The notes beneath the pieces were generated by a model, which was given only the letters and a program-made list of their open reading frames with translations, was not told the origin of the DNA and did no database searches. This document shows positions 510 through 31,563 of a DNA stretch of 64,000 nt, one piece after another; the first letter of the stretch is position 1; every line of letters starts with the position of its first letter. Origin of the DNA: Asterias amurensis (Eukaryota > Echinodermata > Asteroidea > Forcipulatida > Asteriidae); assembly GCF_032118995.1 (NCBI RefSeq), contig NC_092668.1, forward strand, positions 10,085,501 to 10,149,500, in the 5' to 3' direction. The translations under genes and the position numbers were made by a program.

Positions 510-3388
510 CCGAGCATAAATGCCCAATCCCAGCCAAAACCCAGCAATAGATGCGCAGCCACAGCGACTGTCACTGCTTCCATTATACATGGCACCAGTG
601 CCAGACGAGCACACACTAGACTGAGTTTACGAAGAGCTCCAGCGTCTATTCCGAGCCCTGCCTTGATCAAGATAACAGCTAAGGCAATATTGCGTAGTGC
701 TGAGGCCCAGCCAGGGTCAATGTCATCAGCAATTTGTATACGAGGAACATTCTTGAGCATGAAGCCAACTATGAGCATACCTAAATGAAAAATAAGGGAA
801 GAAGAAAAGAACTGTAAAGCAATCGCACAACACAGGTAAATTGTATTGTCCAAAGGCCCACACTTCGTGTATCAAACTTATATAAAAAACAAACCTGTGA
901 AAATTTAGGCTCAATCGGTCATTGGAGTCGTGAGAAAATAACAGAAAAATCCACTCTTGTTTCCGCATGATTCGCCGTGTTATAACATGTGTTTAAAATA
1001 AATCTGTGATTCTCAATATCGAGAATTGATAATTGTTATTAATATTTTCTCAAAAAGTAATAATAGTATATCATGAAATACTATTTCAAGGGAAGTCTTT
1101 CACCAATACCTTCTGTAAACCCTGTAAGTTATATGTAAATCTGTGAAATTTTAATTTTGGTTCTGTTCAGAAAGTGTCCAATGGCTTTAATTTGACACCA
1201 AATAATAATATCAAACCACCTGTTCATTACCTATAAGCCAGCCGTCGATTTCACAAAACTCTTCCTAACTTAGGATCAATCTTAATGACTTAGGACGAGT
1301 CCCAACTCTGCACTGTAGCATGCAGACACTAAGATTAATCCTAAGTTAGGACGAGTTACTTGTCCTAACTCAAACCGACGGCAGGGCTGATACTTGCCTT
1401 TGTGCCCTTGAAATGCTCACAGTAACATTTCCATTTTGCTCATAGGGTACCAAGGAGAAAAAATGCCTTGGTGCCCATGCCCTTACAGAAATGAAGCCTG
1501 ATAAGCAAACCTCCTACTACAGGTACCTTCATGGTATGTCAGACTTGATACTTGGACCCTGGGAAAAATGGGGAATGTGCAAGGCCTGACCTTTGTACAT
1601 TTAAAGCTTTGATAGACTTTCAGACTATTTAGCAACAAAATTACTTCTTTTTTTCTGAGGGTTAAAAATTTGCCTGGTATGAAAGCACAAGGTCTTCCAT
1701 TGGTTGTCCAGTCTATACAACATTTTGCTGGCAGTGTATACCACATCTCATCCGAATCGCTTCACTGGTTGTTCCACATGAGATACTCTGGGAGCCTTTC
1801 CAACGGGAGCCTTTCCCTAATGTAAACATATTGTACTGCTGTAAAACTCCCTACCTGTATGTTGCTTTTCACCTTCTTACAATCTACATTAAACCAAAAA
1901 TTATGCGGCAGGTTTAACTTTAAAGTGTCCTTTTTGACACTTGTTATAGACACTCGACACTATTGGTAACTGCCAAAGACCAGTCTTCTCACTTGGTGTA
2001 TCTCAACATCATAAAATAACCTGTAAAAATTTGAGCTCAATCAGTTGCGAGATGATAATGAAAGAAAAAACACCCTTGTCACACAAAGTTTTGTGTTTTC
2101 AGATGCTTGATTTCGGGAACTCAAATTCTAATTCTGAGGTCTTGAATTCAAATTCGTGGAAAATTACTTCTTTCTCGAAAACTACCTCAATTCAGAGGGA
2201 GCTGTTTCTCACAATGGTTTATACTATCAACCGCTCCCCATTACTCGTCACCAAGTAAGGTTTTATGCTAATAATTATTTTGAGTAATTACCAACAGTGT
2301 CCACCATAACATTCTGGTGAAACTTTTTTATCAGGTAAAAGCCTCCATTCAGAATCGGTTCTTAAACTTAAAACATGAGGCTATGGTGGGAAGTCCCCCG
2401 GCAGTGACAGTGAAATAGGTTATTGCCTTTGTGCCCTAGTAGAATATCCAGCAGAAATGATGCCCTTTACTGAGATAAAACCGCCTTGCCTTTAATAATT
2501 TACAGGCTGTAAAAGTCTGGTTTACAGCCATACACAGCAACTTGTCAGAAAAGAGCAAAGTTCCAGGCACAGCAAGAATTTGAAATGTGTTTAACATTTT
2601 TTACTGACACAGCTGAGAGACCTAAAGAACAAGGAAATCAGCTAAAAGGTTGCATGGCTGGGTTTGTTTGAATGCATTCCAGGTAATTGTTGAAAACTTT
2701 GTAAAAACAAATTCTTTCAAGAAGAGGGAGTAAAAATATTTATTTGTTTACCTAACAAAGCTGGTAGATGAAAAAACTCAACGATCATCCCGCCGATAGC
2801 AGCAACCACCACAAGAATATAAAGGGCAAAAAGGTTCCCTCCGGGCAACGACTCCGCCCCTGTGATGGACCAAAGTATCGCCCACAACAGCAGTAAAATC
2901 ACCATAATAAGAACCACCCTAGCAAGAACTCCGTGGGGTGGGCACATGCAGGCGTATTTCACACTCGCTCGTCGTGACGGATACTCAGACAAGGGATTGT
3001 ATTTGGTGAGGCACGGCCTCCACGCCATTTTACACCGTTCGCGGAGTCCAACACAGCATTTATTGTCTTTTTCCTGCGTGGGTTTAACCGGAATGTGATT
3101 TGGATAGGAATTATTGTCAATGTTGATGACGGTGAAACTGCCATGTTCGTTTATTCCCATCGGCAGGCCATGCCAGGGCGCATTCTCTTCACAGTCACTC
3201 ATGGTATCATCTGCTCCATTCTCCTCCAAGGGAATGCTGGTGTCTGGTGAGATGATGCCAGTTGCGTTCGGAGTTTGGTCAAAGGAGCTCTTCTCGTTAC
3301 GGAGGCCGGAGTAATCTTCAGCATTGGTGACTTCAAGGTCGGATCGTTTTGCCGTCTTGTAGGATTTGGACACAATGTTGCCTCCCAT
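510..3388 (-). CDS. SLC9B2: SLC9B (NHA2-like) sodium/proton antiporter, copy 1, partial (3' end outside window)
   Basis: Cation/proton antiporter of the CPA2/NHA family, a multi-pass membrane protein exchanging Na+ or Li+ for H+. Two coding exons are visible: 3388-2752 (start ATG to donor, phase 1) and 780-510 (271 nt, donor phase 2); the rest lies left of position 1. The start is the first ATG after an acceptor (exon begins 3444, after a pyrimidine-rich tract ending TATAG); the frame stays open upstream only through intron sequence. Residues 1-148 are a hydrophilic acidic cytoplasmic tail, followed by MCPPHG, a first hydrophobic segment (about 157-176), LPGGN at 181-185 and a second segment (186-204). 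Across the junction LPALLG joins MLIVGF, then come RNIALAVILIKAGLGID and the helix ending FMLG, all typical of NHA2. The Asp-pair exon is not in view. The intron 2751-781 (2 kb) holds two MITEs. Any 5' non-coding exon is unproven; a donor-like GTAAGG near 4480 is a candidate. Family call is firm; the 1-versus-2 paralogue label is by similarity only. Confidence 0.9.
814..1190 (+). mobile_element. Family-A MITE (TTAA-ended), degraded left end
   Basis: Same interior as 23864-24230 (ACACTTCGTGTATCA, AAATTTAGGCTCAATC, GAGAATTGATAATTGTT, TGTAAACCCTGTAAGTTAT) and right end AATGGCTTTAA. The left end is decayed (GTAAAGCAATCGCACAAC). It sits about 30 bp from the acceptor of antiporter copy-1 exon 2 (780). 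Confidence 0.8.
1237..1386. mobile_element. Small foldback element
   Basis: Arms GCCGTCGATTT...TCCTAACTTAGGAT and ATCCTAAGTTAGGA...AAACCGACGGC are inverted; centre is an unpaired stretch with TGCACTGTAGCATGCA. In the intron of antiporter copy 1. Confidence 0.65.
1950..2305 (+). mobile_element. Family-B MITE, termini decayed
   Basis: Interior matches 55368-55746 (CAAAGACCAGTCTTCTCACT, GTTGCGAGATGATAATGAAA, CAGAGGGAGCTGTTTCTCAC). The outer TTAAAG ends are not recognisable. Lies in the intron of antiporter copy 1. Confidence 0.78.
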
Positions 3389-9085: not shown

Positions 9086-12000
9086 TTACAGCGTATCATC
9101 AGTGCTGCAAGCCTCAATACCCGTCCTCAGCAGAATGGAATGCTCCGGTCCAGGGTGAACGGGGGAAAGTTCCACAACCTCACTACTTATGGGTGACCCT
9201 ATATGATGGATCTCGATTCTGCGCTTGTTGTTGTTGACAGGTTTTTCGTTTGCGGTCTTACTGAGGAGGCGTGGACCAGTCATCGCTATGGCAATGGCCC
9301 CCAAAGGCGCAGTGATAAGGATGGATAGAACTGCAACAGTCAAAAGCTACAAACAAGCAGAGTAAGAAAAGTGATTCAAAGTTATGTATAATCAGATGTA
9401 ATCAGATGTGTAACATTGTCGATTCAAAAGAGAAGAGGCAGTGCTCAAGCTCTTTTCACTTTGTACAGTTTCTACAGCACTAATATTCAAGCACAGAGGA
9501 ATTCTGCAAAAAATGTGCGTGCCTGTTTAATGTGAAGGATCAAAGGCTACCCTAGGCTATATATGTAAAAAGTTTAGGTCTTTTAATTCCGACTTGACTT
9601 AACAGCTGTTTCCAATGCACTTCAGCTTACCGGTGACTTCCCCATAATCTTTATCCTACAGAAGTTGATTAAGTTGGTTTGAACACTGTGGGTTGTACCA
9701 TGCACTACGAGATTTTGAAAATATGATATACCGAGTGACTACTAGCATATAGTGTACACATTATCAGTCAAAATAGCACAACTCCAATTTTGAGAATTGT
9801 GAAACACACACAAGCGTGGTACCACATGAGAAATGGTGGCATAAGAGCTGCCAAAAGTATCTAAATTGGTATTGAGACCTAGCACCAATGCCACATTAAG
9901 CCACTGACTGCCACACTCAAGTTTCAGTCAAATTAACAGTTATACATACAAAGTACAGTGCGCGTGTGAACCCTGCCTAAACTGCACACTACACACTATA
10001 ATAACACAGCGACATTGACTTACGAAATGGCACAACTGAGAATATTTGGTGAATTGGGTATATGTTACTTACTTGTGTTCCAAGCTGAACAAATTCTTCT
10101 CCAGCTTGATGCTTGATAGCTGTGTCTAAAGCCACTGGCCCAATCGCTGCCTGTCAACACATAAAGAAAACAAAAACGACTCACTGTATAAGGATTTCTG
10201 CAAAAAAAACTGTTGCATACAGCCAAATCCATTAAAGCCATTGGACACTTTTGGTTAACAGTATTGCCCAAGGCCCACACTTCGTGTATCACAACTTCTA
10301 TATAAAATAACAAACCTGTGAAAATTTAGCCTCAATCGGTCATTGGAGTTGGGAGAAAATAGCGGGAAAACCCAAGCTTGTTTCCGCACGGTTCGCAGTG
10401 TCATGACATGTGTTCAAAATAAATTCGTAATTCTCGCTATCGAGAATTGATATTGTTTTAATGTTTTCTTAAAAAGCATTTCATGGAACAATATTTCAAG
10501 AGAAGTCTTTCACCATTACCTTCTGTAAACCCTGTAAGTTATTTATAAATCTGGGAACTTTTTTTTTTCTGTACCGAAAGTGTATAATGGCTTTAAGTAA
10601 CCGTTATACATAACAACAATACGGTACATTCTTTATCAACCATAACAAACCTAAATCCTTCAAAATCCACTGCATAGGGCCTTTTCCAAATCTTGACTCC
10701 AGCTCTGTTTCATGTTAAACCAATGCACTGATGATTGAACCCAAGCCGAAGCAGCAGAAGCCCAGGCCTTGGTTTTGAAAAGGCTCATAACTTGCCTTGT
10801 TTTTGATGGAAATATCCCCCCTCCCTACAGTAATCAATTTCTTAGCACTAGGCTAGCCCTTGGAGCCTTTCACTTTTGTTTTATACTACAGTGTATTTAG
10901 TACAGCACAGAGGACGAGTCCTTTTTGGGGCTAAGCATGAGGCCATGCATATCTATTTTTATCAGAGTCCATACAATTAGGCATTCAATTATCAGAGTGC
11001 ATTACTTTGGGAAACTCCTGAAACAAAAACCCAGGAAATCAAGCTTAACGATAACTTTTCTGTCACCTGTAACATGTTTTGTTTAAACAACTCACCTGTA
11101 CAGTTGCTTTAGGCAGCCAAGCGAGGGAGATAAATATCTTTTCTTTCAAGTTCATCTTGGCTCTGCAGACGGCTAGGAAGGTGGCTATTAGCCTGAAGAA
11201 CAAACCAATGAATAGTGTAGCAATTCCAAGACCTGTCACGGTAAAATCAAACCACTCTTCAAGGTGAAGTCATAAGTGTATATATCCCCTAAATGGTTGT
11301 ACTGGTACTTTTCTAATGTCCATTATCGCTTCGCCAAAGAATGGGAAACATAGTATATGGGGAAACTAGGTGGCAGCAGACTTATGGTACATCCATTTCT
11401 CATGTAAATGTGCACACTTTTTCAGAACTATTGGGTATAATGGGAATTTACCAGGTAAGTCTGCTGCTACCTAGCATTGCTAAGTCTCCCATTGGTCGAT
11501 CAAACCAAGTAGCATTGAGCATGTCATAACCTACTCTGATAGCTGATTAATGTTGACAAAAATAGATATTTCGCTTGTTACAATGAAATTTGAAAAATGC
11601 TTGTCCACAAAGGATTACCCTTTTTTATTTCCACAGCTTTATTAGGAATTGGGCACAAAGCTGTGAGAGTAAAGAACGATGGTTGCAAGCATAGAATTTC
11701 TTAGCAAGAAAGGCCCATTTACACTTCACCTACACAATCACAGTGGTTGCTTTTCCCTACAATTCAACAAATATGACTTTTGTTTTATAATGGATCCAAA
11801 CAAATTTGAAAGTTTACTCTGAAACTTGATAAACCTTTGATTGAACAGCGACATTTTTCTCACCAATAGTCGCAGGTTGAATGGAATTAATGTCCACCTC
11901 TGCACCAATTAATCCAAACAGAAGTGGTTCAAAGAGCAGCCATAACCATCCGATGTACTTCTCTACTGGCTCCTAGAAAAACCAAGTTCAATCAACATTA

Positions 12001-15000
12001 TTACACTTAACTACATTTCACAACAATCATGCTGATTATAATTTTATCTGCAGGTTCTTGCGGTCACCATTACTCAACTACAGGAAAGTTTCTGGGTATT
12101 AAGAATGTTTCAGTGACCTGAAATGAACAAACACACCAAACAATCCTATTCTGTGAAATACCCTTATACATAAGCGCAGAATAATCTGCTTACCATGAAT
12201 TTTTCGCTTACAGTCTTATAGGGAGTAGTCCTGTATATAACAGATCACTTGCACTCTCTTTAAATTCCGGTAACAAAAAACAGAAATGAAACAATATACC
12301 TTTTGCTTTTTCCATCCATGTCCAGCAACAAATGCCATAGTGAGACAGCCAAGAGCTCCAGCACCGGAAAACTTCAACGCTGAGCTCCCAAAGACTGCAA
12401 ACAGTCCGCTACCAACGAGCAAAAGAGTACGTCTCATCACAAAGGACGTCTAAAGAGATGTAAGTTTAATTTAAACAGAGTAAATTAATATGGAACCAGC
12501 CAAAACCAAAGTACGTAATATGACAATGGATTGGTACACTGCTATGTAAACATTTACTATTTTCATTAAAATTGCACGACTCGGAGCACAATTTCTCAGG
12601 CCTTTTTCAAAACCACAGCCTTGGCTTGGATTCTGGCAAAGCTGTATATCGAGAGAGTTAACTTGCGATTAGAATCAATTTTTGGTCTAAAGAACGCATG
12701 TTTGCACATTGGGTGCCAGACCAGGCTCCCCATTGGGCTGTATTGCATTTTGACAGAAAATGGCATCCAGCAACCTGGTGACTTAAGAAAACTAGTCACT
12801 CCATGTCGCAACTATCTTAATACACAGCTCTGAGTTCCAGGTTAGGTTTCCGATGTTGGTCAGTTATTTAAAAGAAATGTGCACTCTTTGAAGGGGTTTC
12901 AAAGAGGCAGACAGCCTAAAGCTGGAGCCCAAGCAAAATATTTGGATTTGAAAAGGGCCACAGAGCTTCTGCTGGCAGAACAACTGCTCAACACATTTTT
13001 TGTAAGAAAATATACAGCAGTTTCTGGTTAAAAAACTCTATGACAAAGGATCAAACTTGACACCCAATTTATGCAAAAAAAATTGTTGTTAATGATCGAC
13101 TCAAAGTTTCACAGATATGTGTTATATCATAGAAAGCATGAAATTTTAAGACAGTATATTAGGCATACAAGTGTGTTAAAAATGGACAGCAATGGAAAAC
13201 TTTGGGATGCCAGGTAGGAGCAGACAAAGCAAGTAATTTTTCCATTCAGAATGTAATCCTGAGAAGGCACACATTTCCACGAGCAATGGATTTACCTGGT
13301 AAGTCTGCTGCCGCCTAGTTCCCCTACAGTTTCCTATTGGAAATATAGAAGTTCTTGTTTCAAGCCATCACATCGTCAGACTAAATACAAAGAATCCATA
13401 ACCTACACTAAGGGTGGTTACCTGAAACCTGTCTGGTAAGTACCATAACACAACACCAGATATACAGCCAAAAGCAACACCAATTACAAGCTCCAATGGC
13501 CCACGAAATATGTTGTAGACAAGGTCACCTGGTGGAATGGAAGAAAGGACCAATCACTTAAGGAATGCATAGATAGTAACTAACACATGTTTCAGACAGG
13601 TGCCCCAGAGTCGCATAGAACCAAATTCTGAAGTACATGAAAAGTTTGACATCTATAACAGTTAGGAGGGACTGGACTTGCTAGAAGTCGAAAGATCTAC
13701 TGCTGTAGTCGTTCAGAATGACTCTGGAGCGCCTTAGCTTCAGACGTCGATCTTGTCCTGAGCCGAACCTAATGTAAATGTTATGTTAAGTTCGCCTTTC
13801 TGAAACCATAATTTATTTGGGTCGACCTAGAGTCGCTCCTTATCTATTTGGTCCGGCAAGACTCTAGCGCGCCTGTCTGAAAAGGGTGTAAGACAAGTCA
13901 ACTTGCACGTAGAACCATGCAAAAAAAAAATTTTTTTTTTATTCTTTTGAGTTTTGGCTCTGAAAAGCGCCACTCTGGTCTTGACTTTTTTTAACAGTAT
14001 ACTCTGCTGGTCTTCAGGAGAATGTTGGACTGCTGATGTTGAGTTATCAGTTCAACATTGCAACAATGTTTGTGGAAGGTCCGGCCGTTGATTAGCTTAG
14101 CCTGTTTAAAGGATGCTCTGGTCATTGACTTGAGGTGCTGAAAGCTAAAAGCCCTCCATAGAGCAAAAATGTGTACCCTCTCTTGAAATGTGAAACAGTG
14201 CTAGTACATGCACTCTCAAACCGATGTGTCTTCCGAGAGACACACTTATCACATTGACCCAACTCACCCGATGTCATCAACCAAAATCAGATCTTGGTTA
14301 TCTGATCAATCATCTTGGTTGTGCCATTCAAGTAGTCAGATCCACAATGTGTTATTACTGTGCAATACACATTTCAGGTTAGACACAAACCATTAAATAA
14401 CACATGCACACATGGTATATGCAACTTGACTCCCAAATTGACAGACCCTATGTCTGGATCTATTAAGAACAACAAATTTGACATGGGAATGGCAGATCTC
14501 TGCAGCTACGAATATATAATAATTTCTTCTCTCTTGGTGTCTATGGGGAACGCAAAATCATTGTCATTTGTTACCTGTTGCAAAAGCTGCACCAAGGATA
14601 ACCCCGAAGGCACTGATGGCCAGTACATCATCACAGGAAGCCGCAGCGATCACCAGGGTGGGGATACCCTTTGTGACACCATAACCTCTGTTCTGAAGTG
14701 ACAGCAAGGACGGGACGATCACAGCTGGAGTGACTGCTCCAAGAACAAAACTGAAAGACAGGAAAATGCAAAGGTGACTTTTTGTAATGTGTCGTGGTTG
14801 GGCGGTCTACTAGTGCATTGGAATCAAGTTCCGGTGTTGTCCAAATGTGTATGGTTCCAATTCAAGTCACTTGAATCCATGAGCAAGACACTTTGTCCTT
14901 CGGAATTTATAATGCTCTTCAAAGTCCAACCCTGTCAGTTTATAAATAAAAGGGGTTTGCCACTGTGTTTCCAGGATGGTTGACTATATATTGCACCACA

Positions 15001-17232
15001 TTGTAAACCCTTACAATGTGCTATACAACGGGTCTCATATTTCAAACACAGCTCTGCATACCAGTCATAAAAATAACATGATGCCTTTTGTGTGTGTAAA
15101 AAGCACTATTTTATAAGAACTATTAAGTTAAAACTGCCTTAATGGTCCGCTGGATAAGTTTGGGATGTCACCAAATCATCAACACATGAGGCTAACAGAC
15201 GCACTTTTGCCCATTGACACCTGACACATCTTAGTTTCACCAAGAGACCGACGAAGACGAGAGCAAGTCTTTCTGAATAGAGTGGGCGATTCAAACTGTT
15301 AAGAAGAGACCATTACTGTAATTGAAGGATTAGTGTCCAATAAAAAGTACTGTTATGGACAATTCTACATTAAATCACATAGTGATATGCCAACAAAGTA
15401 AAGCCGGTTCATACTTCCTGCGAATGCAAATGCGAAGCGAATTTGACGTGAATTTTACGTCACAACCCTCCTTTTGCAGCGATATTCGCAAGTGAGTTGA
15501 ACAAAGTTGAACTGCTGCAAATAATTCGTTGTGAGTTTGTGACGTCAACATTCGTATCGCATTCGCATTCGCAGGAAGTATGAACCGGGCTTAAATCTCA
15601 CCCCAACATAAATCCCCAGGCCCAGGGGAAGCCCAGTAGAAAATGAGACACAACGCCCACAGTACAAGCCTCAACTAAACATGGTGTGCAGCACAGCCTC
15701 AAGCACACCATGCTGAGACTCTTCAAGGCTTTGGCGTCTAGCCCAAGCCCCGCCCTTAGGAGGATCACTACCAGGGCGACGCTGCGGAGAGCTGAAGACC
15801 AGTTCTTATCGATGTGTGTTGCAACATTGATGTAGGGGATGTTTCGGAGCATGAAGCCAACAATGAGCATACCTGAGTGGAAGGAAATAAACTGCTATTG
15901 ACTATATATTACTCGAATGGGATTCGAACCCAAAACCCTTGCAATTCAAGAGTAATATGCCTGTGATATTTTTCGAACCCAAAACCCTTGCAATTCAAGA
16001 GTAATATGCCTGTGATATTTTTTCACAGGACTTGGGAAAGTACCGAGTATACAGTGCTAACACAAATCGGTGTATGGGTAAAAACCAAAATTAACATTCC
16101 TTATGCTTGAATGCAAATTTAACATCTAAAATGCTTTTGACTTGGCAACGGATGTTATTGTTGATGATTTGCAATTGGGGAGTTTTAAGAACAGGGTGGT
16201 AGCAAGAGTATTCATTATCAATGTGCACATTATCAGAACTAAAGAACAATGGAATCTTGTCTGGTAAGTCTGCTGCCACCTAGTGTTCCAAGATTCACCC
16301 ATTCACGGACATTACACCCAGATTGTTAACCTGCGACTTCTGATTAAATGTGCCAGCACTCTAACAACTGAGCTATGCAGCCGTAATGTTAGAGTCAATC
16401 TCTTTGTTTGAATGCCAATCAGAAGCCATTCAAGTGTAACTACCATTTGAAGTTTCTTTTCCAAATTTCCTAATTTTTTTCGTCAATTTTGTTTTGTTCT
16501 CTCAATTAAGTGTTATAAAATCAAGGGTTCAGTACATACTAACTACCGTTCACACATACCTAACAAAGCTGGCAATCGAACAAGCTTGATCAAAATGCCT
16601 CCAACCATGCAGCATATCACCAACACATACAATGCAAAGAAGTTCCCCCCTGGCAGAGCCGCATCCCCCGTCATACCCCACACCACACCCCATGACATCA
16701 ACACAAACAGAACCAAAGTCACATCCCGTGATACTCTCCCATGGGGTGGGCACATCAGTGAATGTTTCAACCGGGTGCACACAGATGGGTTATTGGGTAA
16801 AGGGTTATGCTCAGTCATGCACGGTCGACAGAACACCAGGCACGAGGCGGAACAGTGACTTCCACTAATCGCCTCATCTCTACCATCATCATCCGAGTCG
16901 GGATCCCGATCTTCAGAGTCCAAATCAAACTGCGGGATCTCAGGTGGGGTACGGTCCCACCGATCACTTCCCTCGGTCCCCCGAGAAACCTGGGTCTGGT
17001 AACCATCCCACTCCATGGCAGGGGAGCCTGGCTTGCTACTGTAGACGGGGCTCTGGCTTGGAGTGGCATAAACATTGCCTTTTTCAGGGGAATCGTAGAC
17101 GTTAGGTAGACCTGGTGTGGCATATATGACCTCTTGGTGAGGATCCGCATACTCAGTCCCTTGGTCGGGAGTCCCACGGTCTGGAGAGACATTCCCCTTG
17201 TGTCCAAGATTCCTCTTAACCGGTGATGACAT
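9086..17232 (-). CDS. SLC9B2: SLC9B (NHA2-like) sodium/proton antiporter, copy 2, complete
   Basis: Electroneutral or electrogenic Na+(Li+)/H+ exchanger of the NHA family in plasma or organelle membrane. Nine coding exons: 17232-16560, 15872-15602, 14750-14575, 13528-13422, 12449-12300, 11972-11864, 11232-11096, 10150-10073, 9346-9086. All have GT-AG borders, phases agree, and the sum is 1962 nt (653 residues plus TAA). The start is the first ATG after the acceptor at 17244, the same arrangement as copy 1. Residues 1-165 are a hydrophilic tail with an array of YxxP motifs (Tyr 28-55) and an acidic stretch (about 103-120). MCPPHG at 160-165 precedes the first membrane segment (~171-188); LPGGN is 193-197. 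Exon 3 carries the TP motif (322-323) and the adjacent aspartates D355-D356, matching the functionally essential Asp pair of human NHA2. Exon 7 ends with the family signature WLPKATVQ. A hydrophilic C-terminal tail of about 60 residues ends in DDTL. Human NHA2 is about 537 residues, so both tails are extended here. No canonical AATAAA is seen just downstream on this strand. Confidence 0.94.
10232..10596 (+). mobile_element. Family-A MITE (TTAA-ended)
   Basis: Starts TTAAAGCCATTGGACACTTT and ends AAAGTGTATAATGGCTTTAA, giving imperfect inverted termini bounded by TTAA on both sides. Lies in the intron between exons 7 and 8 of antiporter copy 2, about 80 bp from the exon-8 boundary. Confidence 0.85.
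11341..11492. mobile_element. Family-E MITE (CTAGGTGGCAGCAGAC ends)
   Basis: Inverted ends around ACTAGGTGGCAGCAGACTTA and AAGTCTGCTGCTACCTAGCA, bounded by ATGGGAAAC/GTCTCCCAT. In the intron between exons 6 and 7 of antiporter copy 2. Confidence 0.75.
13191..13339. mobile_element. Family-E MITE
   Basis: Left end AATGGAAAACTTTGGGATGC and right end GTAAGTCTGCTGCCGCCTAG...TTTCCTATT; ends 84 bp from exon 4 of antiporter copy 2. Confidence 0.65.
13591..13881. mobile_element. MITE with TTCAGACAGG ends
   Basis: Inverted ends TTCAGACAGG (13591-13600) and CCTGTCTGAA (13872-13881), with further matching of CAGAGTC/GACTCT and ACCAAA/TTTGGT inside. Lies in the intron between exons 3 and 4 of antiporter copy 2. 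Confidence 0.7.
14790..14870 (+). mobile_element. tRNA-like SINE head, decayed
   Basis: TCGTGGTTGGGCGGTCTACTAGTGC followed by ATGGTTCCAATTCAAG resembles A and B boxes. In intron 2 of antiporter copy 2, 40 bp from exon 3. Confidence 0.35.
15411..15592. mobile_element. Foldback MITE abutting antiporter exon-2 donor
   Basis: 182 bp with inverted ends AAGCCGGTTCATACTTCCTG and GGAAGTATGAACCGGGCTT, plus subterminal GCGAATGCAAATGCGA/TCGCATTCGCATTCGC. Its right edge is eight bases inside the intron from the splice donor at 15601-15600. A diverged relative is at 52138-52272. Confidence 0.8.
15923..16020. repeat. Perfect 49-bp tandem duplication containing a tRNA-like B box
   Basis: 49 bases from TTCGAACCCAAAACCCTTGC recur immediately (15923-15971, 15972-16020). 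With the preceding GGGA the first copy reads GGGATTCGAACCC, the complement of a pol III B box. Following sequence (AACACAAATCGGTGTATGGG) matches the tail of the SINE-like segment at 48300-48436. Confidence 0.75.
16172..16313. mobile_element. Family-E MITE
   Basis: Degraded left end (ACAGGGTGGTAGCAAGAG) and good right end GGTAAGTCTGCTGCCACCTA. In intron 1 of antiporter copy 2, directly before a tRNA-like segment. Confidence 0.65.
17035..17151 (-). repeat. Nine-residue tyrosine repeat (YxxP array) in the antiporter N-tail
   Basis: Within coding exon 1 of antiporter copy 2, tyrosines fall at residues 28, 37, 46, 55 and 64, exactly nine residues apart. The first four are in YADP, YATP, YDSP and YATP; the fifth is YSSK followed by P. 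Preceding residues often include V (VIY, NVY, NVY, PVY). At DNA level the 27-bp units are diverged, so this is an old, retained repeat rather than a fresh minisatellite. YxxP is the class of site bound, when phosphorylated, by Crk/Nck-type SH2 domains in Cas-family scaffolds; use of it here is inference. Confidence 0.8.
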
Positions 17233-20040: not shown

Positions 20041-23000
20041 ATGGAGTATTTTGAGTACCCCGAATACGCTGACATCATGGAACTCTTTATTGAGACTCTG
20101 ACGGGTACTGTTTTCGAGCTTCGAGTGTCTCCGTTCGAAACCGTCATCTCGGTGAAAGCGAAGATTCAAAGATTGGAAGGTACGGTCATACATGTCATTA
20201 TCATTATTATGATATCAGATATGACGGTATGAACGAGTGGAGTGGATCTGAGAACACTGTCACTTCTTCCTTGCTTCTTTCAAGATAGAAACAATATTTG
20301 GGAGGCTTTGCCGTCTGCCGAGTCACATGGAAGAAAACAAAAATGAACCAACCATTCTGTGAAAGGGGTGTTGCAAAATACCTTGCCATATTTCCAACTG
20401 GCGAGCAGGCATTTAACGTAACCCTCCTCCCGATGGCCGCCAGGCCGGAGGGTTACGAGATCGGTTCGAGCGGCAACGGTTAATCTGGTCCAACATGTAC
20501 AATTTCGTACAATTTTGACAGCTAGTCACCAGATTTGCCCCATTTTTACCACTAGCCCGTCGGGCTATCAAACTGGAAAAATCAGTAGCCCGGCTGTAAA
20601 TCTGGTAGTCCCGGGCTAGCGGGCTAGTGGCAATTTCGACCCCTGTAATTGGTCTATAGATTCATTAATTCACCATAACAGCTTTTTGTTTTTTGAAAGA
20701 GTTAAGAATAATGTTCTGGTTGCAACACTACACCTAACAGTGCTAACCCCGATAAAAGTTTTAGTTTATTTGAAATATTTATTATCCATGTTTGTATTTT
20801 TTTTGTTTTTGAGATTGTGGCCCCTTGCAAATCAGTTAGATTGTTTATATTACATGAAAAGTCTATAAATGTATGTAAGTTAGGTCTACTTGTACTTCCT
20901 GTACTTGAAAACGTGTTCCTACTGGTTTTCAAAGGCTAAATATTACGGCTATGTAGTTAACTACATGTAAAGCAACACACCAATCAGCATTTCAATTTTC
21001 TTGCAGTCAACAAATGTCATGAACTGCATTTGGCGGGAAATGTGTCTGTAAATTGAAATGTGTTCATTTTGTAAGTTGTTTGTTATTTCGTTTTCACTCA
21101 TGCAGGAATTCCCATAAGTCAGCAGCATCTTATATGGCGATCTGTGGAGCTGGAGGATGACTATTGCTTACATGACTATGGGTATGGTTCTATTGTTGTT
21201 TGTTGCTTAGTTAGGCCAAGAACAAAAATGTACTAGTTGATCGTCCATGTTTTTTCCAAAAAGAGGAGGATGCGGTTTTTAAAAGTGTTTGTTACCTATT
21301 TCCTAAAGACCATCAGATTTTCCAATTGAACTGTCCTTTACAAAATGAATGAAATTCAAGGGCTGTGATTGTCTCCCTTGTTAAATTCAATGAATTAGCT
21401 GTCATTTTTCATAAACCATAAAATGTATACGCAATGTTAAGTTAAGGCATTGCCTAGCAACAACCTACACGTAGAATCTATTTACAAGTTGAAACTTATA
21501 AGTGAAAAAAACATTTACTTTGAGAGGTTTTATAGCCAAAATAGCATGTTAAGTTGGTGCATACCGTGCAATTGGTCCACAACACGCACCCTTTTATGTA
21601 AGTTTTGGCACTTTGACACAACTTCATGTAACTCAAATAAAGAGCAACTCTATGGCCCAGAGATCAAATCACTTTAGCCCTTAAGAAGAGAAAGGTCAAT
21701 TTTCCTTGTAAATCAACTCTGTGATATTTGCAATACCATTCGTACAATATGCTTTCCTAAATCAGCACTATGGTACCTTATGGGGTGTTATCTTTGTATC
21801 AAAAGTACTTGAGCCTTGCTCCACTAGTATTGTTTAGTTGATCATTTACTATTTGTCTATTATACATTTTTTTGTGCGTGTTCATTATTATTTGCCAATA
21901 CACAACAGAGATTGTTCACAGATTTTGTTGAGCTCCTTTAGTACATGTACACTGTGCACACTAAACTACAAGTGTGTGTGTGACTGTGTACATAGCTAAA
22001 AATAAAATACACGCTCACATTAATTGTATACAATTAGGACCATAATAGCTTGTAGGTGTTCATACTTGCCCTTGCGGTTCTTTGGGTGGTCCATTTGGAC
22101 AGCGAAAACATGTTAACATCTCAGAGTTTTAACTGCATGTTTTTCTACATTTTACCTTGGAAGGTACCTTCACCTTTCCTTTGTTGCATCTTCTTGCCCG
22201 TGTACCACATGACTCACTGTTGTAGAAACCCTAAAGTTGAACTGTTCTCATTCACAAAATAAGTCGTTTAAGCTGAAACAAATCAAGGTTTTGTTCAGTG
22301 AGTCTTTGGCATTTTAAGTAATGATTTGGCACCTTGTCTGATTGTCTCCCCAATTAGTAAGCTTTGTTCGTCTGATACTTCAAACTTGGAAAAACCATGG
22401 AAAAACATTGTAGAAGAAGATGGGTTTCTAGACACCAAACTTGACACACATGATTATGATGGATCAGATGCTCATATTTGGCATTGTTGGTTTGAAAAAG
22501 TCACTAAGTGCAAAATCTGACAGTGTTTTTAAAAGTTGTCATGGTTTGAGTTAATCAAAAAACAAACAAAAAATTGTGGAACATCTTACACGTATACTTA
22601 AGATGTGTTAGTGCCATGTGTGTTAGTAATTGATTATTTCCTATGCCATAAAAGAAGTTCTTTATTACATGTACCAGCCCATACTTTGGTTTGTCATGCT
22701 TGCTTAAGTTAGCTATACTGAGTTAAACATCTCATCAAAATGTGTGCCTATGTTTAAATTAAACTACCATTTGTTTCTTTCTCTTCAATTTCTTTGTTAG
22801 AATTCCGCCGAGCAGTTCTCTCAAACTGGTACTTGCCATGAGGGGTGGGCCTATCAACACCAGAAGGAGTAAGTCATCCATTGAATTAATAGTTTGATTT
22901 ATTGTACCTTATTTTGTGTACATGGATAATAACTGTGACCGAGCTAAATTTACCATATGGTACCTGAAGTGACTCAGTTAGGGAATACAAACACCTGTAG

Positions 23001-26000
23001 CACCCCTCTCCCTCCAGAACGAATTACAAATTCATGTATTCATTAGACTGTAGGCCAAACTATTCTCTGACTTAATCTAGTCCTTCATGTCAAGGAACTG
23101 TACATTCTAAGAAACACCCTACAGCAAACTTTAACTGAAACTACCTAGAGATTAGGAATGTCCTCTGAAACTGTTTTTGTGTTCTCCATGATAATTCCCG
23201 CAGACAAATCTGTGTCTAACTGTGGTGAATGCTTTTGTGTCATTGTGTGTGGTTAACTTCTTGTTGAATGTGAGACTTAAGTTACTCTCCTTTTAAGTGT
23301 GACAGTTCTTCTGTTGCCCTGTCGTTTATACTTTAGGATTATCCTCTAGAGTTTTATCTGTTGAGCTGGCTTAGCTTACTGGTCCACAACCTGGTCCAAC
23401 TCCTCAAATGATCCTTTGGGTGAATTTCGGCTGCCTGAGGGAGTGAAACTAAAGAATCTGTGGGGAAACCATTAAAAATCTGGGAAGCATTTTGGCCAGG
23501 GTGTAGACTTCTTACAGCTTGTTCTCTCTTGTTAATCTTTATTTAGTTCTATCTAAAAATCTTCCCCAAGTGCTTTAGGAGACAACAAGTGTGTAAAAGC
23601 AATTGGTCCTCCCTTGGGAAATTCAGTCAAATGGTTTCCACTTCTACTCTCCTGAATTTAATCTTACCAAGTAGGATTAAATTTCAAGTGTGCGATTGCA
23701 CAATTTGCTTATGACTGACTGGTTTTACATCAGCAAATAATATGCTGCACATTTGTTTGTTAAGTGGAGACTGTACCAAAATATTTCAATTTTAGAAAGA
23801 CATTTAAAAAAAACTTGCTTTCCAGATATAAGTTTTTAGTATTGATTGATTTTCATACTAATGTTAAAGCCATTGGACACTTTCGGTAAACAGTATTGTC
23901 CAAAGGCCCACACTTCGTGTATCACAACTGATATAAAAAATAACAAACCTGTGAAAATTTAGGCTCAATCAGGAGAAAATAACGAGGAAATCCCGCCCTT
24001 GTTTCCGTACGTTTCGCCGTGTCATGACATGTGTTTAAAATAAATCTGTAATTCTCGACAACGAGAATTGATAATTGTTTTAATGTTTTCTCAAAAAGTA
24101 AAGCATTTCATGGAATAATATTTCAAGAGAAGTCTTTCACCATTACCTTCTGTAAACCCTGTAAGTTATTTGTAAATCTTTGAACTTTTTTTGTTTTGTT
24201 TTCTGTGCCGAAAGTGTTTAATGGCTTTAAATTAATGTCAATGCAAGTTATATTGTAGATTTATTGAAGTTATTGAATAAATCTTTTAAAATTTTCTAAC
24301 ATGTTTTCTCTTTAAAGTTCCTATGGAGGACCCAGCCATACGTGAGATGGCCGAATACATGGAGGCAAACCGAGATGAAATTTGGGAGAAACTCCCCGGT
24401 AACCGGCAGGTGACATTATTAGTGTTTAGAGAGGGAGACCAGCTAAACTTCTTCAGAGTCGTAGACCGGGGAGATGGCACTCTAACACCGTTATCAGAGT
24501 CCTTGAGGTACGAAAACAAAAGCAAATTGAGTTCAGCTTTCATGGAATTTTGACAAGGTTAACCAAATTAAATGAGATGTTATGTAGTTTTCTAGTAAAA
24601 AAAACAGGGTATTGAATTTATTTGGGGGTTTGAACAGTGTGCTGCCTATATACATATATGCTTCATTTTGAAAGGGCAAGGGCACCAAGGCATTTTCTCC
24701 TTGTAGGTAAAGGGCACCCTATATGGAAATTGTGAATTTCTACTGTAGAAAGGGCACAAGGCAGTGACCAGGGGGTCATGGAGGCAATAGCCTTCGTTGT
24801 CTCCGTGTATCAGGCCTGAGTGTGTTCTACCTGCTTGAGAAATATGATGAGAAATAGATCAATGTGATTGTTTTTGAAGTCTGCAGTAGAAAAACAAATC
24901 TGAAAAGGGTGGTGTTATAGAAAACAGATATAAATGTACTTTCAGTAGTTACTTTTTTTGGTGGCTGGTTTAAGAGCAGTTTTTATTTAGGCCTATATGT
25001 GTACTTGGAATAGACCATGAAAGAAGGGTAATTGGCTTTAACCAAATTGATATGTTTAATGGTAACGCCAAAACAAGTTATCGTCCACAAGTTTTAAGAC
25101 CAAAACAGAGTCTGTTTATAAAGGCTTATTCTGCTTGATTAAACTTTTGGATTCTCAATCCTGAGATTTTGTATCCTACTGCTCCCATGTGGAAATGGTT
25201 CTGAAATGCTTGAGTCCTGCAAAACATGAATACAAAATACTGAACTTGTATTTTTATTTTGTTCATCTTCATCAGTTTTATCCCATATTCAAGGCTCGAA
25301 ATAAACACTGAACTGCATGCCCGAGGCCAGTGATCTTAGCGTTGGGCCAGTAAACTGACGACCGTACAAGTTCGATGGTCTTGTGTTTTTTAATTTGACT
25401 AGTTGGCCCTTTTTAGTACAAATATCTATTGAATGCACGTAAGAAAAAGACATCTACTTTTAGGCCTTATTCTAAAAGCATCTTCAATGTGAAACCGTGT
25501 AGATCAGTGTTCTTCTCATTTTGATTCTGGTCTTGTAAGTTGTAGGCCTAATAATCTCTCTGGTCCAGTAAACGTTTTGAGCTACAAACCCTGCAGTCTA
25601 GTGGATATTCTCCTAAAATTCTAGCCCTGATATTTGAGTATGTCCTTGATCGCCAGTCAAGGAGCTTCATACACCAGTGGAGTAACAACTTTGAAAATGA
25701 TAGATAATACCTACATTTTCTAAAAGCAAGGCCAACAATAAAACTCACTGTTAACAGTTGTCACTTTGTTTATTTACAACCAAGTCCAACCCTGACCTCT
25801 TGCTTGTCCCTTTTATTAGAGTTTGTATACTTGTGGCTGGTCAGTGGAGTCCATTTCCTTTGTGTGGTCAGTTGTGTCCTTAGTTGGTGGTGGGGGAGCA
25901 CAATGCTGGAACCAATATTGATTTTTCTTTGATCTTTCATGATTGGGGTTGGAGATTATCTCAGCTTGATCTCTGTGTGAAACTTTTGTGTGGTTACTTA

Positions 26001-29000
26001 GCAATCTGAGAACTTGTTGTGATTGTGTTGTGGTCACAGGTATTGACGTCTAGAAATAGAACACATGTGTTGTATACAGTACACATGATAGGGTACAGTG
26101 TACTGTACATTGCTTAATAAAATAGAAACAAAGACAAATTATTATAGCATGTAGTTATTACAGGCAGTTTACAAGTTTAAGACAAAAAAAACAAAACAAA
26201 TTTTCTTAGTTAAGAGCACTGGGGAGCTAATTTTTTGACAAAACTTTGCTAGAAAACGACATAGTTATTCATCCACAAGTTTGAATCTGATAAAGGTTTT
26301 GGGTATGGAGGTTCACAATTCACAAAGTATGGACCATTGTGAATTCCGAGAGATTATTTTTTGTAAACAATCCGTGTGGGGGATCGTCAAGACAAAAGGG
26401 CTTGTTGGTTATTGTGGGTACTTGAGCAGAATTCTTTTTACTATACCAAAATTAAAAGGAGAAAAAACTTCCTGACACTGTTCTTTCTAGAACAAGAAGC
26501 AATGGTTATTAAGTACACTTCATTTTCCAATAGAGTTGAAAGGTATATTTCATCAGACTCACTCAAAAGTCAACATTTGAACATAATTTTGTTTGTTCAA
26601 GGAATTATTATACACAGTGAGGTATTGAAAAACACACGACTGATGGACTTGTCCACTTATGATTTTACTAGTCCGACACTACTGGCCTCGGGCGTTTGGT
26701 CCTGTATAAAATTTGAGCCCTGCTTTATAATATGGAAACAATATCCATCCCATCACATACAAACTGCATTAACCGGTCAAATACTGTAAATATACATATT
26801 ACCTGTAAATGTTATTTCTGGTATTGTGAGTATTATATAATGGGTAACAGTGAGGATTAAGCACAAAAGCCATTTAAAGCCATTTAAAAATCTAAATCTT
26901 TGTTTACAGCTTTCTATAGCTTTACAAATAACATGCTTTCACTTGAAAGTATGCTTTTAAAGCCGATGTGCGTCATTTGTGACATTTGGTTTCCACTCAA
27001 CATGTGTAAAAATACATCTGTTTGTTCTTAAACATTCCCTTTGCTAGTTTGCTAGTATTTGTAAGGATTACCATTAAAGACTCATAAAGAGTGGGTGAAT
27101 TATTTCATTTTTAGATTATAAAAGTACAGGATTAGTAATATAACACAACAAGTTAAAATCCGAAATCCCAAAGTTTAAGATTACATACAAGTGTGGAACC
27201 ACTTACACGCTGGAGACTATTGCTTCCTGCCCGGATCTTTGCATCAAGATGAGCCAGCAACAAGTTTCATCTTCTCCAATATAAACAATAACATCATACC
27301 CCTTTCTTCAATCATAAACTTCATTTCAAACTAGTTTTTACCATTTTTGAATCATTGAACCACCAATTCTGTTTTATAAATGTTTTTTACTAGAAATCAA
27401 CAAAATAGCATAACAAGTTTTTGTGAAAGTACATGTAGTAGTCATTGCATCTATATTTATTTATGTAAGCAGGGTCCTGGGCCGATTTCACAAAGATCTA
27501 ATATTGATGGTTACTGCAAATCAATCGTAGTTGCTAAGTAAAACATGATGTCACAATACAAATCACTATGGTGATACGGAAGATTTGCGATGAATTTTAT
27601 TGCTTTGTGAAATCGGCCCCTGGTTTGATAGGCAGCATTTTCCGGCAAAGCATTTGGTAACCATAACATGTTTTAAGAATAGGTCTCAGTTCAAACATAA
27701 TCCAATGGTCCCACAAACCTTACAGGAAGTACTATGTTGCAGCGCCAGGAGCATCAGGAGTGAAGACTTATTATTATAATTATTATCTATGCTTTATTTT
27801 TTGCTGGAAATATTGTAGAGTAAGCCTAACTCTTGTATTTTGTCTCATGGGTTTGTTGCAGTGGTGCGTCAATGTACAACAACATGTATGAGGAGGAAGA
27901 AGATGAAGGAAGGCTACCCTCCGAGGAACAATCAGTGGAGAATGACGTCACAATGAGCAAGATGAAACTCCTCCGTGCCAAGATGGAGACTCTGTCCATT
28001 GGGAAAAAGGTTGGTAAATCTCTCAAAATGGCTTTTTTTACACAAGATGAATAGACCCTTCCCATGAAATATGCTTTACATTCGTGCATGCGTACAGAAC
28101 CTATTGGATGACAAACTCCATAGAGATGTGCATTAAGAGATGAATAGTAGCGCATAAAAAAACAGCACGATGTTACCTCATTTTGCCAACCAAAAGGACA
28201 AACAATTGGTTTCTGCTTCTGTACTTTAAGTCACTCTCACCAACTTCCCATTGCCTCTACTACAGCAATGATAACATTGTTTTTAATTGCTATTGCAGAA
28301 ACATAAAACACCTCATCCACCCACAACAGTACGTCCCAAAAGTACAGCGGTCCGAAGGCGTCTACCCACTACCAAGAAGAAATCACCACCTCTCCTGAAC
28401 AAGAACAATCCCCTTCCCCCAGTTGGTGCTCTTAAACCAGGAACACGTCCTGTGGAAGTAAAGACTAACTTAGATTCGACAACAGAGGCTGTAGACTGTG
28501 CTGCGGGATCTGCAAGTCGGGCTGAACGTCGTCTGCGCACGTCAGACAAATGTCACAGCCCTGTACCGCCTTCTTCTTGTCGTACTTTAGAATCGCTTAC
28601 AAGCGCTCGTCTACACCGGTCATACACAAATCTAGGAAACATGTTGCCTTCCTCAACGGCAACTGTAATGCATGAAATGCGTCCGAATACATCTTCCAAA
28701 GTTCAACAGGTGCTAACGTCATCAGCTGATGCACGGGGGAGAGAACGGAGTGGTGTGAAGGCCGAAGCCCGCCTGGTTACAGAACTCGTTAACCAGGCTA
28801 ACAGGGACGGCAAAATTAATGATATTGTTTGTGGTGCCCCAAGAGACTTACACACTGGAAAGAGTAGCGGGAGGGTGAGGGCTGGAGCGTCAGGGGCCAT
28901 GGCGCTTAGTCAGGCCCTGAATAGTACCACATCCACGGCACTAAAGAATACCAGTAATGGAGACAGGATACAAACTCCTGAGAGGAGAACAAATTTAATT

Positions 29001-31563
29001 GTAAGTACATGATTCGTTTCACGAAAGCCACCACCATTTGGTACATTTGCAAACAAAATTTCTACATACCATAATTCAAAAATTCAGCCTGAGTAGATTG
29101 AAGAAAATGTCAGTATATGTCAGTAACATGGATTTTTTGGGTCACACTTTTATCTTGTGTATGCTCTTACTGCAGTAATGACTCGTATAATTTTATTTGC
29201 AATTTAAAGAAAAGCAGTTTATGGCTGATGATCAGTTTCATTGCTATGGTTAAAACATTAGGGCTTCCCCTCCACTTCAAACATTGCACAATCATGTACG
29301 TTGCTAGAAAGTAATCCTGGTAAAACATTGCTGATAGGTACCTCTCGGTCACAGTTGACAACGCTATAAAAGAAAAAAAATGCATTTAGTTCCCACTAAA
29401 AACTTAACAGCTGTCTTTCTTTCTTTCTGCAGTCTGCACATAGTATACGAGGAAGATTATCTGGCACTCGTGATGGACGACTTTGTAAGTACTGCAAGTG
29501 AATTCCCAAATAAAAGTGATGCTAAAAGCTTTGAACAATATCCCTTAACTATTACCAGTAAGTCTTGTGGGGACAACTATGTATAAATCTCTTTTGAAAG
29601 AGTGTTGGCTTCTGAGCAAAGCTGCTGCTTCTTAGCTCCTGATGTTTTCAACAGTTTCTGTGTTCATCTTTCTTTTTCTGAAGATGAACCTTGTCACATG
29701 AAACATCAAGAGCTTAACAGCAGTTTCTCTAACCAGAACCATTAGTACCCTCATAAGAGATTCAAACCCAGCTGCAAGATTTACTGACTAGTTTTAGATT
29801 CTTTTGAAGGGTAATGTATGGTGCAGGGGCAGTTGCGGAAAGGTACCTGCCAAAATATTAAAAGCATTTCAAATCTTCCCTTATAAAGGATATTTGTTAA
29901 TGATACAAAGGTGTCCACGCAATGGAAGGTTGTATCGTGCTTCATTCACTAAGTTCCAAAGGTTTTTCTAAAGTTTTGGATGACATGATGGCCTTTGGAA
30001 AAGTGGCAAGCTTACAAGCACAGGCTTTACTACTAACATTACAAGGTTCTAAGAAATGAACAGAAACTGTCAGAATATACCCAGAGCTATTTTCAAAAGA
30101 AAAAGAAAAATCATAATTGAGAAAATATGAATTTATTATTTTGGTCTGTTTCATATTGAAATTATTGTTCGTCATTCTCACTGTAGTATCTCCAAGTCAC
30201 CGCCTTCCACCAGTCAGCAGTAGTAAACCAACTTCACTAGGAACAACAAAGAAAAAGACAAGTAAAAGGTGCTCTTTATGCAACAAGAAAACTGGACTAG
30301 CAACCAGTTATCAATGCAGGTAATTGTTAATACCATTGGTAATCATTGCATGGGGACCAGGGCTTATCGTGAGATGAGATGTCGGTATCGACATAGTGAT
30401 TTGTAATGTGACATCACACTTTACTAAGCAACTACGATTGATTTGCAGTTAAGGTCAATCAGTGGAACGTGTCCAATATAAAACCATGTGCTTCGTTTAC
30501 AAATACCTTAATGATCTGGCCCCAGCATATTTAAAATCGTGCTTGGTTTTGTACACCCCAGGAAGAGTTGGCTTTCAGTCATCAAACAAACCTACCGGTC
30601 TTGTTGAAAACAAAATAAATCACAGATCTCTTGCTTCAGCTGCTGAAAATTCCTTCTCTTTTGCCACCCCTAAAACTTGGTATAGTCTCCCCCCCATCTC
30701 TGAGCTCTACTGATTCACTTCATATTTTCAAGAAGCATCTGAAATCACACCTGCACCTGTTCCCATAATGATTGTTTGGCTGTTAATTTTCAAGCTGTTT
30801 CATCATTTCTTTGTATCATCACAAACCGCTGTGGTCTTGATGAAATGGCGGTATATAAAACATTTTTTATGATGTATGTACGAGCTCTTTGTGAAATCGG
30901 CCCCAGGGCTCGATGTCACAATAACCTAAGATTGAACTATAGATGTGTTTTACTTCTAGTTGCTAAGCAAAGTGGGATGTATATACTAAGCGCCTTGAGT
31001 ATCTTGTTGGTAGATACGTGCGCTATAAAAGACTACGATATTATTATTACGTGTATTATGTCACAGTACAAATCACTAAGGTGAGAATGACAACTCATCT
31101 GAAGCTGAATCTTAGTGCTTTGTGATTTCGAGCCCAGATTGGCCAAGTGGTATCTTGCCCTGCCTTGACACCCTTTGGACCTTGGATCGAATCCTGCCTT
31201 GGGCCAGAGTCTTTTATTTGGTTCAGTGTACATTTTAAGCTACCAGCTCTATAGTCTTGTAGAAAATTACTCCAAATTATTGCCTTGACGTGGTCAATAT
31301 GACATCATTAACTGTGCAACTAGCCCTTTACTTTGTCTATCAAACCTCAATGATGTCATTTGGGAAAAAGTGTCGCCGAAAATGCTTATAGATCCGTTGT
31401 TTATTCTTGGTTTTGTCTTACTTTCAGGTGCGGTCACAACTTCTGCGCCACCCACCGCTATGCTGAAGCCCACCACTGCGGCTACGACTATAAAACAGAG
31501 GGACGAAAGATACTCGAGCAGAGCAATCCCCTCGTCAGCGCGCCAAAGTTGCCCAAGATTTAG
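20041..31563 (+). CDS. ZFAND4: AN1-type zinc finger protein 4 (ubiquitin-like + AN1 finger)
   Basis: Nine coding exons: 20041-20179, 21106-21181, 22801-22868, 24318-24507, 27862-28009, 28299-29000, 29433-29484, 30187-30319, 31428-31563. Borders are GT-AG, phases agree, total 1644 nt, 547 residues and TAG. Residues 13-88 form a ubiquitin-like domain, starting MELFIETLTG and ending MRGG, followed by PINTRR. Next is the conserved GDQLNFF...VDRGDGTLTPL block (exon 4), then an acidic SMYNNMYEEEEDE stretch and a basic KMKLLRAKME helix (exon 5). The 702-nt exon 6 encodes a low-complexity Ser/Thr/Arg-rich linker. The AN1 finger spans residues 487-520 with all eight ligands: C487, C490, C502, C504, C509, H512, H518, C520 (CxxC-x11-CxC-x4-CxxH-x5-HxC), split between the last two exons. 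The vertebrate protein is about 700 residues, so the linker is shorter here. Biochemical role is poorly known; the domains imply ubiquitin-pathway adaptor work. The first AUG of the exon is used as start; the 5' non-coding exon is not identified. Confidence 0.95.
23864..24230 (+). mobile_element. Family-A MITE (TTAA-ended), best preserved copy
   Basis: 367 bp from TTAAAGCCATTGGACACTTT to AAAGTGTTTAATGGCTTTAA. Located in ZFAND4 intron 3, ending about 90 bp before exon 4. No coding capacity. The TTAA borders resemble piggyBac-type target sites; superfamily assignment is inference. Confidence 0.88.
27479..27619. mobile_element. MITE with GGGCCGATTTCACAAAG ends
   Basis: Perfect 17-bp inverted ends at 27479-27495 and 27603-27619 in ZFAND4 intron 4. 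Related fragments (GTGATTTG, TTGCTAAG, TGTCACA and the AAATCGGCCCC end) occur at about 30352-30460, 30888-30990 and 31050-31135 in intron 8. Confidence 0.78.
30462..30770 (+). pseudogene. Non-LTR retrotransposon C-terminal fragment in ZFAND4 intron 8
   Basis: Encodes the characteristic post-RT region of L2/CR1-type elements: MCFVYKYLNDLAPAYL, SAAENSFSFATPKTWYSLPP, then after a frameshift near 30705 a LHIFKKHLKSHL continuation ending in a stop near 30770. RT core and endonuclease are absent. A tail-like block (AAGCGCCTTGAGTATCTTG...GTGCGCTATAAAAG, 30988-31040) follows after an intervening MITE fragment. A nested dead insertion. Confidence 0.75.
31130..31215 (+). mobile_element. tRNA-like SINE head
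   Basis: AGATTGGCCAAGTGGTATC (A-box-like) and CTTGGATCGAATCCTGCC (B-box-like) in ZFAND4 intron 8. Confidence 0.5.

Follow-up and report, generated by a model that had tools for sequence, protein, structure and literature searches.

A tyrosine array with Abl-like flanks on the N-terminal tail of an SLC9B/NHA2-like antiporter of Asterias amurensis

When phosphorylated, the YxxP motif is reported to be the consensus ligand of Crk-type SH2 domains (PMC5043372, PMC2689226), a specificity described as older than animals (PMC5043372). In the substrate domain of BCAR1/p130Cas, which is disordered and proline-rich, several such motifs keep their spacing while the stretches between them vary (PMC3983058, PMC2689226), and among 11 placental mammals the spacing is described as absolutely conserved, with variation at the positions between motifs (PMC3983058). 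YxxP repeats have also been described on the cytosolic part of choanoflagellate transmembrane proteins (PTSG_05573 and others), some of the five having SH2-like or receptor-like extracellular domains, and no antiporter is mentioned among them in the consulted sections of that report (PMC5043372). On the kinase side, c-Abl is reported to share with Src a preference for a bulky aliphatic residue at position -1 from the tyrosine, but to differ from it in preferring Ala at +1 and in a strong preference for Pro at +3; the sequence of the peptide AblTide 2014 is given as GAPEVIYATPGAKKKG (PMC10065799). Here we analyse 64,000 nucleotides of the genome of Asterias amurensis (contig NC_092668.1 of assembly GCF_032118995.1, positions 10,085,501 to 10,149,500; the whole of this stretch is referred to as the window), in which the gene of an SLC9B/NHA2-like antiporter encodes four YxxP motifs packed into 31 residues of its N-terminal tail.

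The gene and the array that it carries are located as follows:

9086..17232, minus strand: complete SLC9B/NHA2-like antiporter gene, 9 exons, 653 amino acids plus stop, with matches to PF00999 and PDB 7b4l.
17017..17151, minus strand: five 9-residue units with Tyr at residues 28, 37, 46, 55 and 64, YADPHQEVI YATPGLPNV YDSPEKGNV YATPSQSPV YSSKPGSPA.
17110..17133, minus strand: EVIYATPG, codons 34-41, a letter-for-letter copy of the AblTide 2014 core, eight residues in a row.

Residues are numbered from the ATG at 17232; taking an in-frame ATG at 17280 as the start would add 16. The tyrosine motifs are, in order, YADP (28), YATP (37), YDSP (46), YATP (55) and YSSK (64), so that YxxP, the sequence type of Crk SH2 ligands, occurs at Y28, Y37, Y46 and Y55 and not at Y64. 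The linkers between units have a constant length, and beyond the array the next tyrosine is residue 78, followed by six more in the antiporter. A first-pass annotation, made from the letters of the window alone, had already pointed to these five tyrosines and four YxxP motifs at 17035-17151 (codons 28-66), and the layout holds in the complete 653-residue gene model.

Such regularity is rare by chance. With the number of Tyr kept, random placement put at least five tyrosines into one arithmetic progression (step 2-30) in 22 of 200,000 trials for the first 80 residues, in 4 of 200,000 for 133 residues and in 5 of 200,000 for 160. When the first 80 residues were shuffled, at least four YxxP motifs appeared in 481 of 200,000 cases. 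Within the array core (residues 27-67), 11 of 32 positions are identical at lag 9, a value reached in none of 100,000 shuffles and, in a repeat run, in 1 of 50,000. Removal of Tyr left 7 identities (64 of 50,000 shuffles), removal of Tyr and Pro left 4 (1,973 of 50,000), and without Tyr, Pro and Val only 2 were left, which is within chance (16,034 of 50,000); the lag-9 signal of the core is thus borne by Tyr, next by Pro and next by Val. In the same line, pairwise identities number 24 of 50 in the motif columns from -1 to +3 and 4 of 40 in the linker columns from +4 to +7.

Other tyrosine signals were considered for the array and discarded, namely the YxxPhi and NPxY sorting signals and the immunoreceptor tyrosine-based inhibitory and switch motifs (ITIM/ITSM): the +3 residue is P or K throughout, and none of the array tyrosines closes an NPxY. 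A smaller repeat lies just upstream:

17155..17186, minus strand: 15-nt repeat of 2.1 copies, coding for SPDRG/TPDQG, out of register with the array.

The tail also contains a second echo, likewise out of register, formed by the tetrapeptide KGNV at residues 12-15 (17188-17199), where SP follows, and again at residues 51-54 (17071-17082), where YATP follows; the later copy immediately precedes the fourth array tyrosine.

The flanks of the array tyrosines resemble c-Abl substrates. The likeness of (I/V)YAxP to the Abl consensus was recorded before the published peptide table was seen. For scoring, one point each was given for I, L or V at -1, A at +1 and P at +3, which makes 3 points per tyrosine and 15 over the five units. 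The array obtains 11 of 15, with a shuffle mean of 1.6 and none of 200,000 shuffles reaching 11; Y37 and Y55 score 3 of 3, Y28 and Y46 score 2, and Y64 scores 1. The seven remaining tyrosines of the antiporter and the six in the first 153 residues of a neighbouring paralogue score 0-1 of 3. When Tyr37 was compared with the six consensus peptides tabulated in PMC10065799, AblTide 2014 was the best match with 8 of 11 residues, followed by the Abl consensus with 5, SrcTide 2014 with 4 and the remaining three with 3. A single random tyrosine of the tail would obtain the full Abl score at about 7e-4, and at least 7 of the 10 AblTide flanking residues at about 4e-7. Apart from the eight shared residues EVIYATPG, the fourth unit, VYATP, has Y-A-T-P in common with the peptide (PMC10065799), and the Thr at +2 of the array YATP units, which forms a TP site, is the +2 residue of AblTide 2014 as well; the c-Abl peptides are, however, designed single-site substrates, whereas this is a natural array.

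On these grounds we give a probability of about 0.5 to the reading that the array is an Abl-type multisite tyrosine-kinase substrate on the disordered N-terminal tail of an SLC9B antiporter, where phosphorylated YxxP would recruit Crk- or Abl-type SH2 domains. The first-pass annotation had drawn an analogy with Cas-type substrate domains, which is sound as regards the Crk-type SH2 consensus of YxxP and less apt for the kinase side: since the residues around the tyrosines resemble Abl sites more than Src sites, multisite Abl-type substrate is a better label than Cas-type Src substrate domain. A Cas-like array phosphorylated by Src-family kinases and docking Crk/Nck SH2 domains would fit the four YxxP among five sites, the Asp at +1 of YDSP, which is that of the Src consensus peptide (PMC10065799), and the precedent of choanoflagellate transmembrane proteins with YxxP repeats on their cytosolic part, phosphopeptides of one of which bind the SH2 domain of crka (PMC5043372). 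The Src preference, however, scores only 5 of 15, a value reached in 15,245 of 200,000 shuffles, and no array tyrosine matches any of three Src peptides at more than 4 of 11 residues, compared with 8 of 11 for AblTide 2014, so that this alternative matches less well than Abl and we consider it quite unlikely.

On the Abl-type reading the array would be Cas-like in mechanism, without the antiporter being a Cas protein. In comparison with p130Cas, the antiporter tail has 4 YxxP motifs versus 15 in the human protein and 6-25 across species (PMC5043372), its flanks are of the Abl kind and it is attached to a transporter; the N-terminal SH3 and C-terminal FAT-like domains of the Cas family were not found in the antiporter, for which Pfam at E up to 0.01 gives PF00999 alone. 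With regard to the choanoflagellate proteins, YxxP repeats on a cytosolic part would be a shared trait if the antiporter tail is indeed cytosolic, and the peptides tested there were of the YDVP type (PMC5043372).

Exact spacing with diverged codons had been taken in the first-pass annotation as a sign of selection on the protein, and the codons do bear such signs. Of the 11 core residues identical at lag 9, 10 differ in codon, and over residues 19-72 this is so for 13 of 15, the other 2 sharing theirs. Matches at a lag of 27 nt over codons 19-72 amount to 22 of 45 at the first codon position, 20 of 45 at the second and 13 of 45 at the third, the latter being background, since elsewhere in the tested range of lags 3-19 the third position matches at anything from 5 of 35 (lag 19) to 15 of 36 (lag 18). 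The 27-nt units are identical at 3-17 of 27 nt, 17 of 27 being the value for the two YATP units (the second and the fourth), and Tandem Repeats Finder (TRF) listed no 27-nt array (lowest score 30). A recent 27-nt tandem duplication as the origin of the array is rejected on account of the negative TRF result, the low unit identity and the codon-position pattern. Altogether, these are signs of an old or convergent array maintained at the protein level. Tyr and Pro have been retained while the linkers diverged, whether or not an older 54-nt duplication occurred.

The codon pattern also argues for translation of residues 19-72, because the first and second codon positions echo at lag 9 and the third do not. 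This bears on the idea that transcripts in vivo have an alternative first exon or start internally, and that the array is left untranslated. Exon 1 does contain candidate acceptors, for instance one before 16929 with a pyrimidine fraction of 0.67, the eight acceptors of the gene model having 0.61-0.83. We find this highly improbable: besides the codon pattern, the ATG at 17232 has an A at -3, and the tail of the paralogue likewise resides in the exon of its first hydrophobic segment.

How an Abl-type substrate tail might operate can be outlined from related systems. The tail would be cytosolic according to the 14-helix plan of NHA2, and an Abl-family kinase would be expected to phosphorylate Tyr37 and Tyr55 best and Tyr28 and Tyr46 next. 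The phosphorylated YxxP sites might then dock adaptors of the Crk/CrkL type together with the SH2 domain of Abl itself. An Abl SH2 domain could drive processive phosphorylation, and its docking might lead to such a process along the evenly spaced units. In p130Cas, phosphorylation is described in a review as stochastic and without obligatory order (PMC2689226). The loaded tail would finally anchor, sort or tune the antiporter and in this way place local pH or Na+ exchange under the influence of a tyrosine-kinase signal. In NHA2, the helix that follows the tail, transmembrane helix (TM) -1, is described as a lipid-responsive dimer interface (PMC8850199). About 100 residues lie between Tyr64 and the first helix of the antiporter (TM -1, the dimerisation switch, in NHA2), and because of this distance recruitment, anchoring or trafficking appears likelier than direct gating or allostery.

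A stronger version would make the protein a direct and processive effector of Abl, with near-optimal natural Abl sites on one of two paralogues, coupling a tyrosine-kinase signal to pH, for example in sperm activation or fertilisation, and recruiting Crk-type adaptors; we put this forward tentatively, as possible rather than probable. This would mean, if true, that a transporter which regulates pH is linked directly to a cytosolic tyrosine kinase through the tail of one of two neighbouring paralogues, and that YxxP arrays have a further transmembrane setting beside the choanoflagellate proteins. Moreover, since such Abl sites would be part of the tail itself, the link between kinase and antiporter is directly testable. 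Sperm suggests itself as a place for such a test, because mouse NHA1 and NHA2 are located on the sperm flagellum, double-knockout males, besides being infertile, show poor sperm motility and a reduction of signalling from soluble adenylyl cyclase to cyclic AMP, by a regulatory route stated to be unclear (PMC4823964), and c-Abl is reportedly activated at mouse sperm capacitation in a manner dependent on protein kinase A (PMC3503396).

Several points weigh against the Abl-type reading. The fifth unit, YSSK, lacks both Ala at +1 and Pro at +3, the third unit has Asp at +1, and the first lacks an aliphatic residue at -1; moreover, the five Abl scores are not independent if the units arose by duplication. 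An NHA2 construct without its 69 N-terminal residues is reported to transport still (PMC8850199), and the tail is therefore dispensable for transport itself in that relative. SH3 docking through a nearby proline motif was rejected, since the pattern [RKY]xxPxxP occurs in 21,625 of 100,000 shuffles:

16933..16953, minus strand: RTPPEIP, codons 94-100, class I SH3-ligand pattern, not significant.

The evidence of constraint on the array comes from a single sequence and is no substitute for a species comparison. In this regard, scans with the exon-1 protein confirmed no relative in collections of prokaryotic and viral contigs (10 and 4 pattern-matched stretches, respectively), a scope that is uninformative on animals.

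Another of these points concerns the silent sites. Lag 18 (54 nt), with its 15 of 36, has the most third-position matches among lags 3-19, and 6 of the 11 residues identical at this lag have a common codon, the mean on re-dealing of codons being 3.4 and 1,631 of 20,000 re-dealings reaching 6. This is a weak and not significant hint at an older 54-nt duplication as the source of alternate units, and the excess tempers the notion of fully saturated silent sites. One could go further and regard the array as a decayed tandem repeat without present role, its five units going back to an ancient duplication of 27 or 54 nt in a disordered tail that tolerates change. The slight excess of shared codons between alternate units would agree with it, as would the 15-nt repeat that adjoins the array, the tail of the paralogue, for which no alignment is possible (188 of 300 shuffles reach its score), and the description of the NHA2 N-terminal tail as poorly conserved (PMC8850199). 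Unselected decay would, however, not be expected to preserve a lag-9 echo at codon positions 1 and 2 and none at position 3, or to retain Tyr and Pro while the linkers change, and a relic of this kind seems very unlikely to us.

The last point is the abundance of proline-directed sites, which the first-pass annotation did not mention. The first 100 residues contain nine [ST]P sites that take up 9 of the 14 prolines, as many as were reached in only 2 of 100,000 shuffles. The tail might thus be mainly a Ser/Thr region of the CDK/MAPK type, where the +3 Pro of the array would simply be the P of TP or SP and tyrosine phosphorylation would be incidental or absent; 6 of the 9 sites are found elsewhere than at +2/+3 of an array unit, and the tail of the paralogue has two [ST]P and no YxxP. 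This reading leaves unexplained the exact period of the tyrosines, the aliphatic residue at -1 in 4 of 5 units and the Ala at +1 in 3 of 5, and YADP has no Ser or Thr ahead of its Pro. As a replacement for the Abl-type substrate it is in our opinion unlikely; the tail may well be a target of a proline-directed Ser/Thr kinase too, as its main function or as a second input.

The gene that carries the array looks intact. Nine exons, joined from 17232 down to 9086, form one open frame of 653 amino acids plus stop, all eight introns are GT-AG, and the frame of exon 1 stays open from the ATG at 17232:

Exons 1-5, minus strand: 16560-17232, 15602-15872, 14575-14750, 13422-13528, 12300-12449.
Exons 6-9, minus strand: 11864-11972, 11096-11232, 10073-10150, 9086-9346.
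16560..17232, minus strand: exon 1, coding for the N-terminal tail (about 165 residues) and the first hydrophobic segment, with a GT donor at its end.

Pfam recognizes a Na_H_Exchanger domain (PF00999, E 5.7e-30) at residues 209-587, and the closest solved structure by sequence, among PDB sequences, is NHA2 (PDB 7b4l, 8e-157; also 7p1i) over residues 145-601, with D355-D356 aligned with the Asp-Asp pair that is described as the ion-binding site of NHA2 (PMC8850199). Because of the PF00999 match and of the NHA2 match with its Asp pair aligned, we assign the gene as an SLC9B/NHA2-like antiporter, with putative electroneutral Na+(Li+)/H+ exchange. The alignment with NHA2 begins at residue 145, ahead of a hydrophobic stretch that is a candidate for the extra N-terminal helix TM -1. 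In contrast to the transporter domain, residues 1-144, including the whole array, lie outside every match among PDB sequences, and the N-terminal tail is predicted to be disordered by the charge-hydropathy rule.

The paralogue is found downstream of the array-bearing antiporter on the same strand:

2752..3388, minus strand: exon 1 of the tandem paralogue, with a tail that lacks YxxP and is not alignable with the array tail.
510..780, minus strand: exon 2 of the tandem paralogue, its end read from a GT donor; the remainder of the gene is beyond the window.

The two proteins share 99 of 185 identities over antiporter residues 131-315. Between their tails no homology was detected, the best local score of 28 being equalled or beaten in 188 of 300 shuffles. 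As had been noted from the letters, the tail of the paralogue is devoid of YxxP, with none in the first 153 residues, which hold 6 Tyr; this tail shares one exon with the first hydrophobic segment of the protein.

The antiporter itself belongs to a known kind; in the open-access literature searched, no antiporter with a YxxP array is reported. The same literature gave no instance of Abl kinase, Na+/H+ exchanger, tyrosine phosphorylation and Crk together, and for NHA2 with Abl it listed only a review on SLC expression in yeast and a study on vitamin D and expression. The word "tyrosine" is absent from the main text of a review on SLC9B (PMC9174904), "N-terminal" and "tyrosine" from the consulted text of a paper on the distribution of the SLC9B family (PMC6660944), and "SLC9", "exchanger" and "antiporter" from the main text of a sea star phosphoproteomics paper (PMC8370769).

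Some further features were observed elsewhere in the window:

20041..31560, plus strand: divergent neighbour in which a ubiquitin-like exon (PF00240, E 0.0023) is followed at some distance by an AN1-type zinc finger (PF01428, E 2.2e-5), each match being under its cut-off.
45521..46726, plus strand: 402-residue open frame that contains an extended Thr/Pro/Ala/Gly repeat and, by eye, a C-terminal hydrophobic segment.
62797..63276, minus strand: open frame that by eye looks like the C terminus of a reverse transcriptase of the LINE type, with no Pfam match at 0.01.

The first of these is probably a ZFAND4-like gene, and the second, which matches the Pfam PT repeat at 9.3e-39, is read as a mucin-like membrane protein. 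Finally, copies of a dispersed repeat containing aaagccattggacact or aggcccacacttcgtgtatca were seen by eye at 841-1190, 10230-10600 and 23860-23990, in introns and intergenic DNA.

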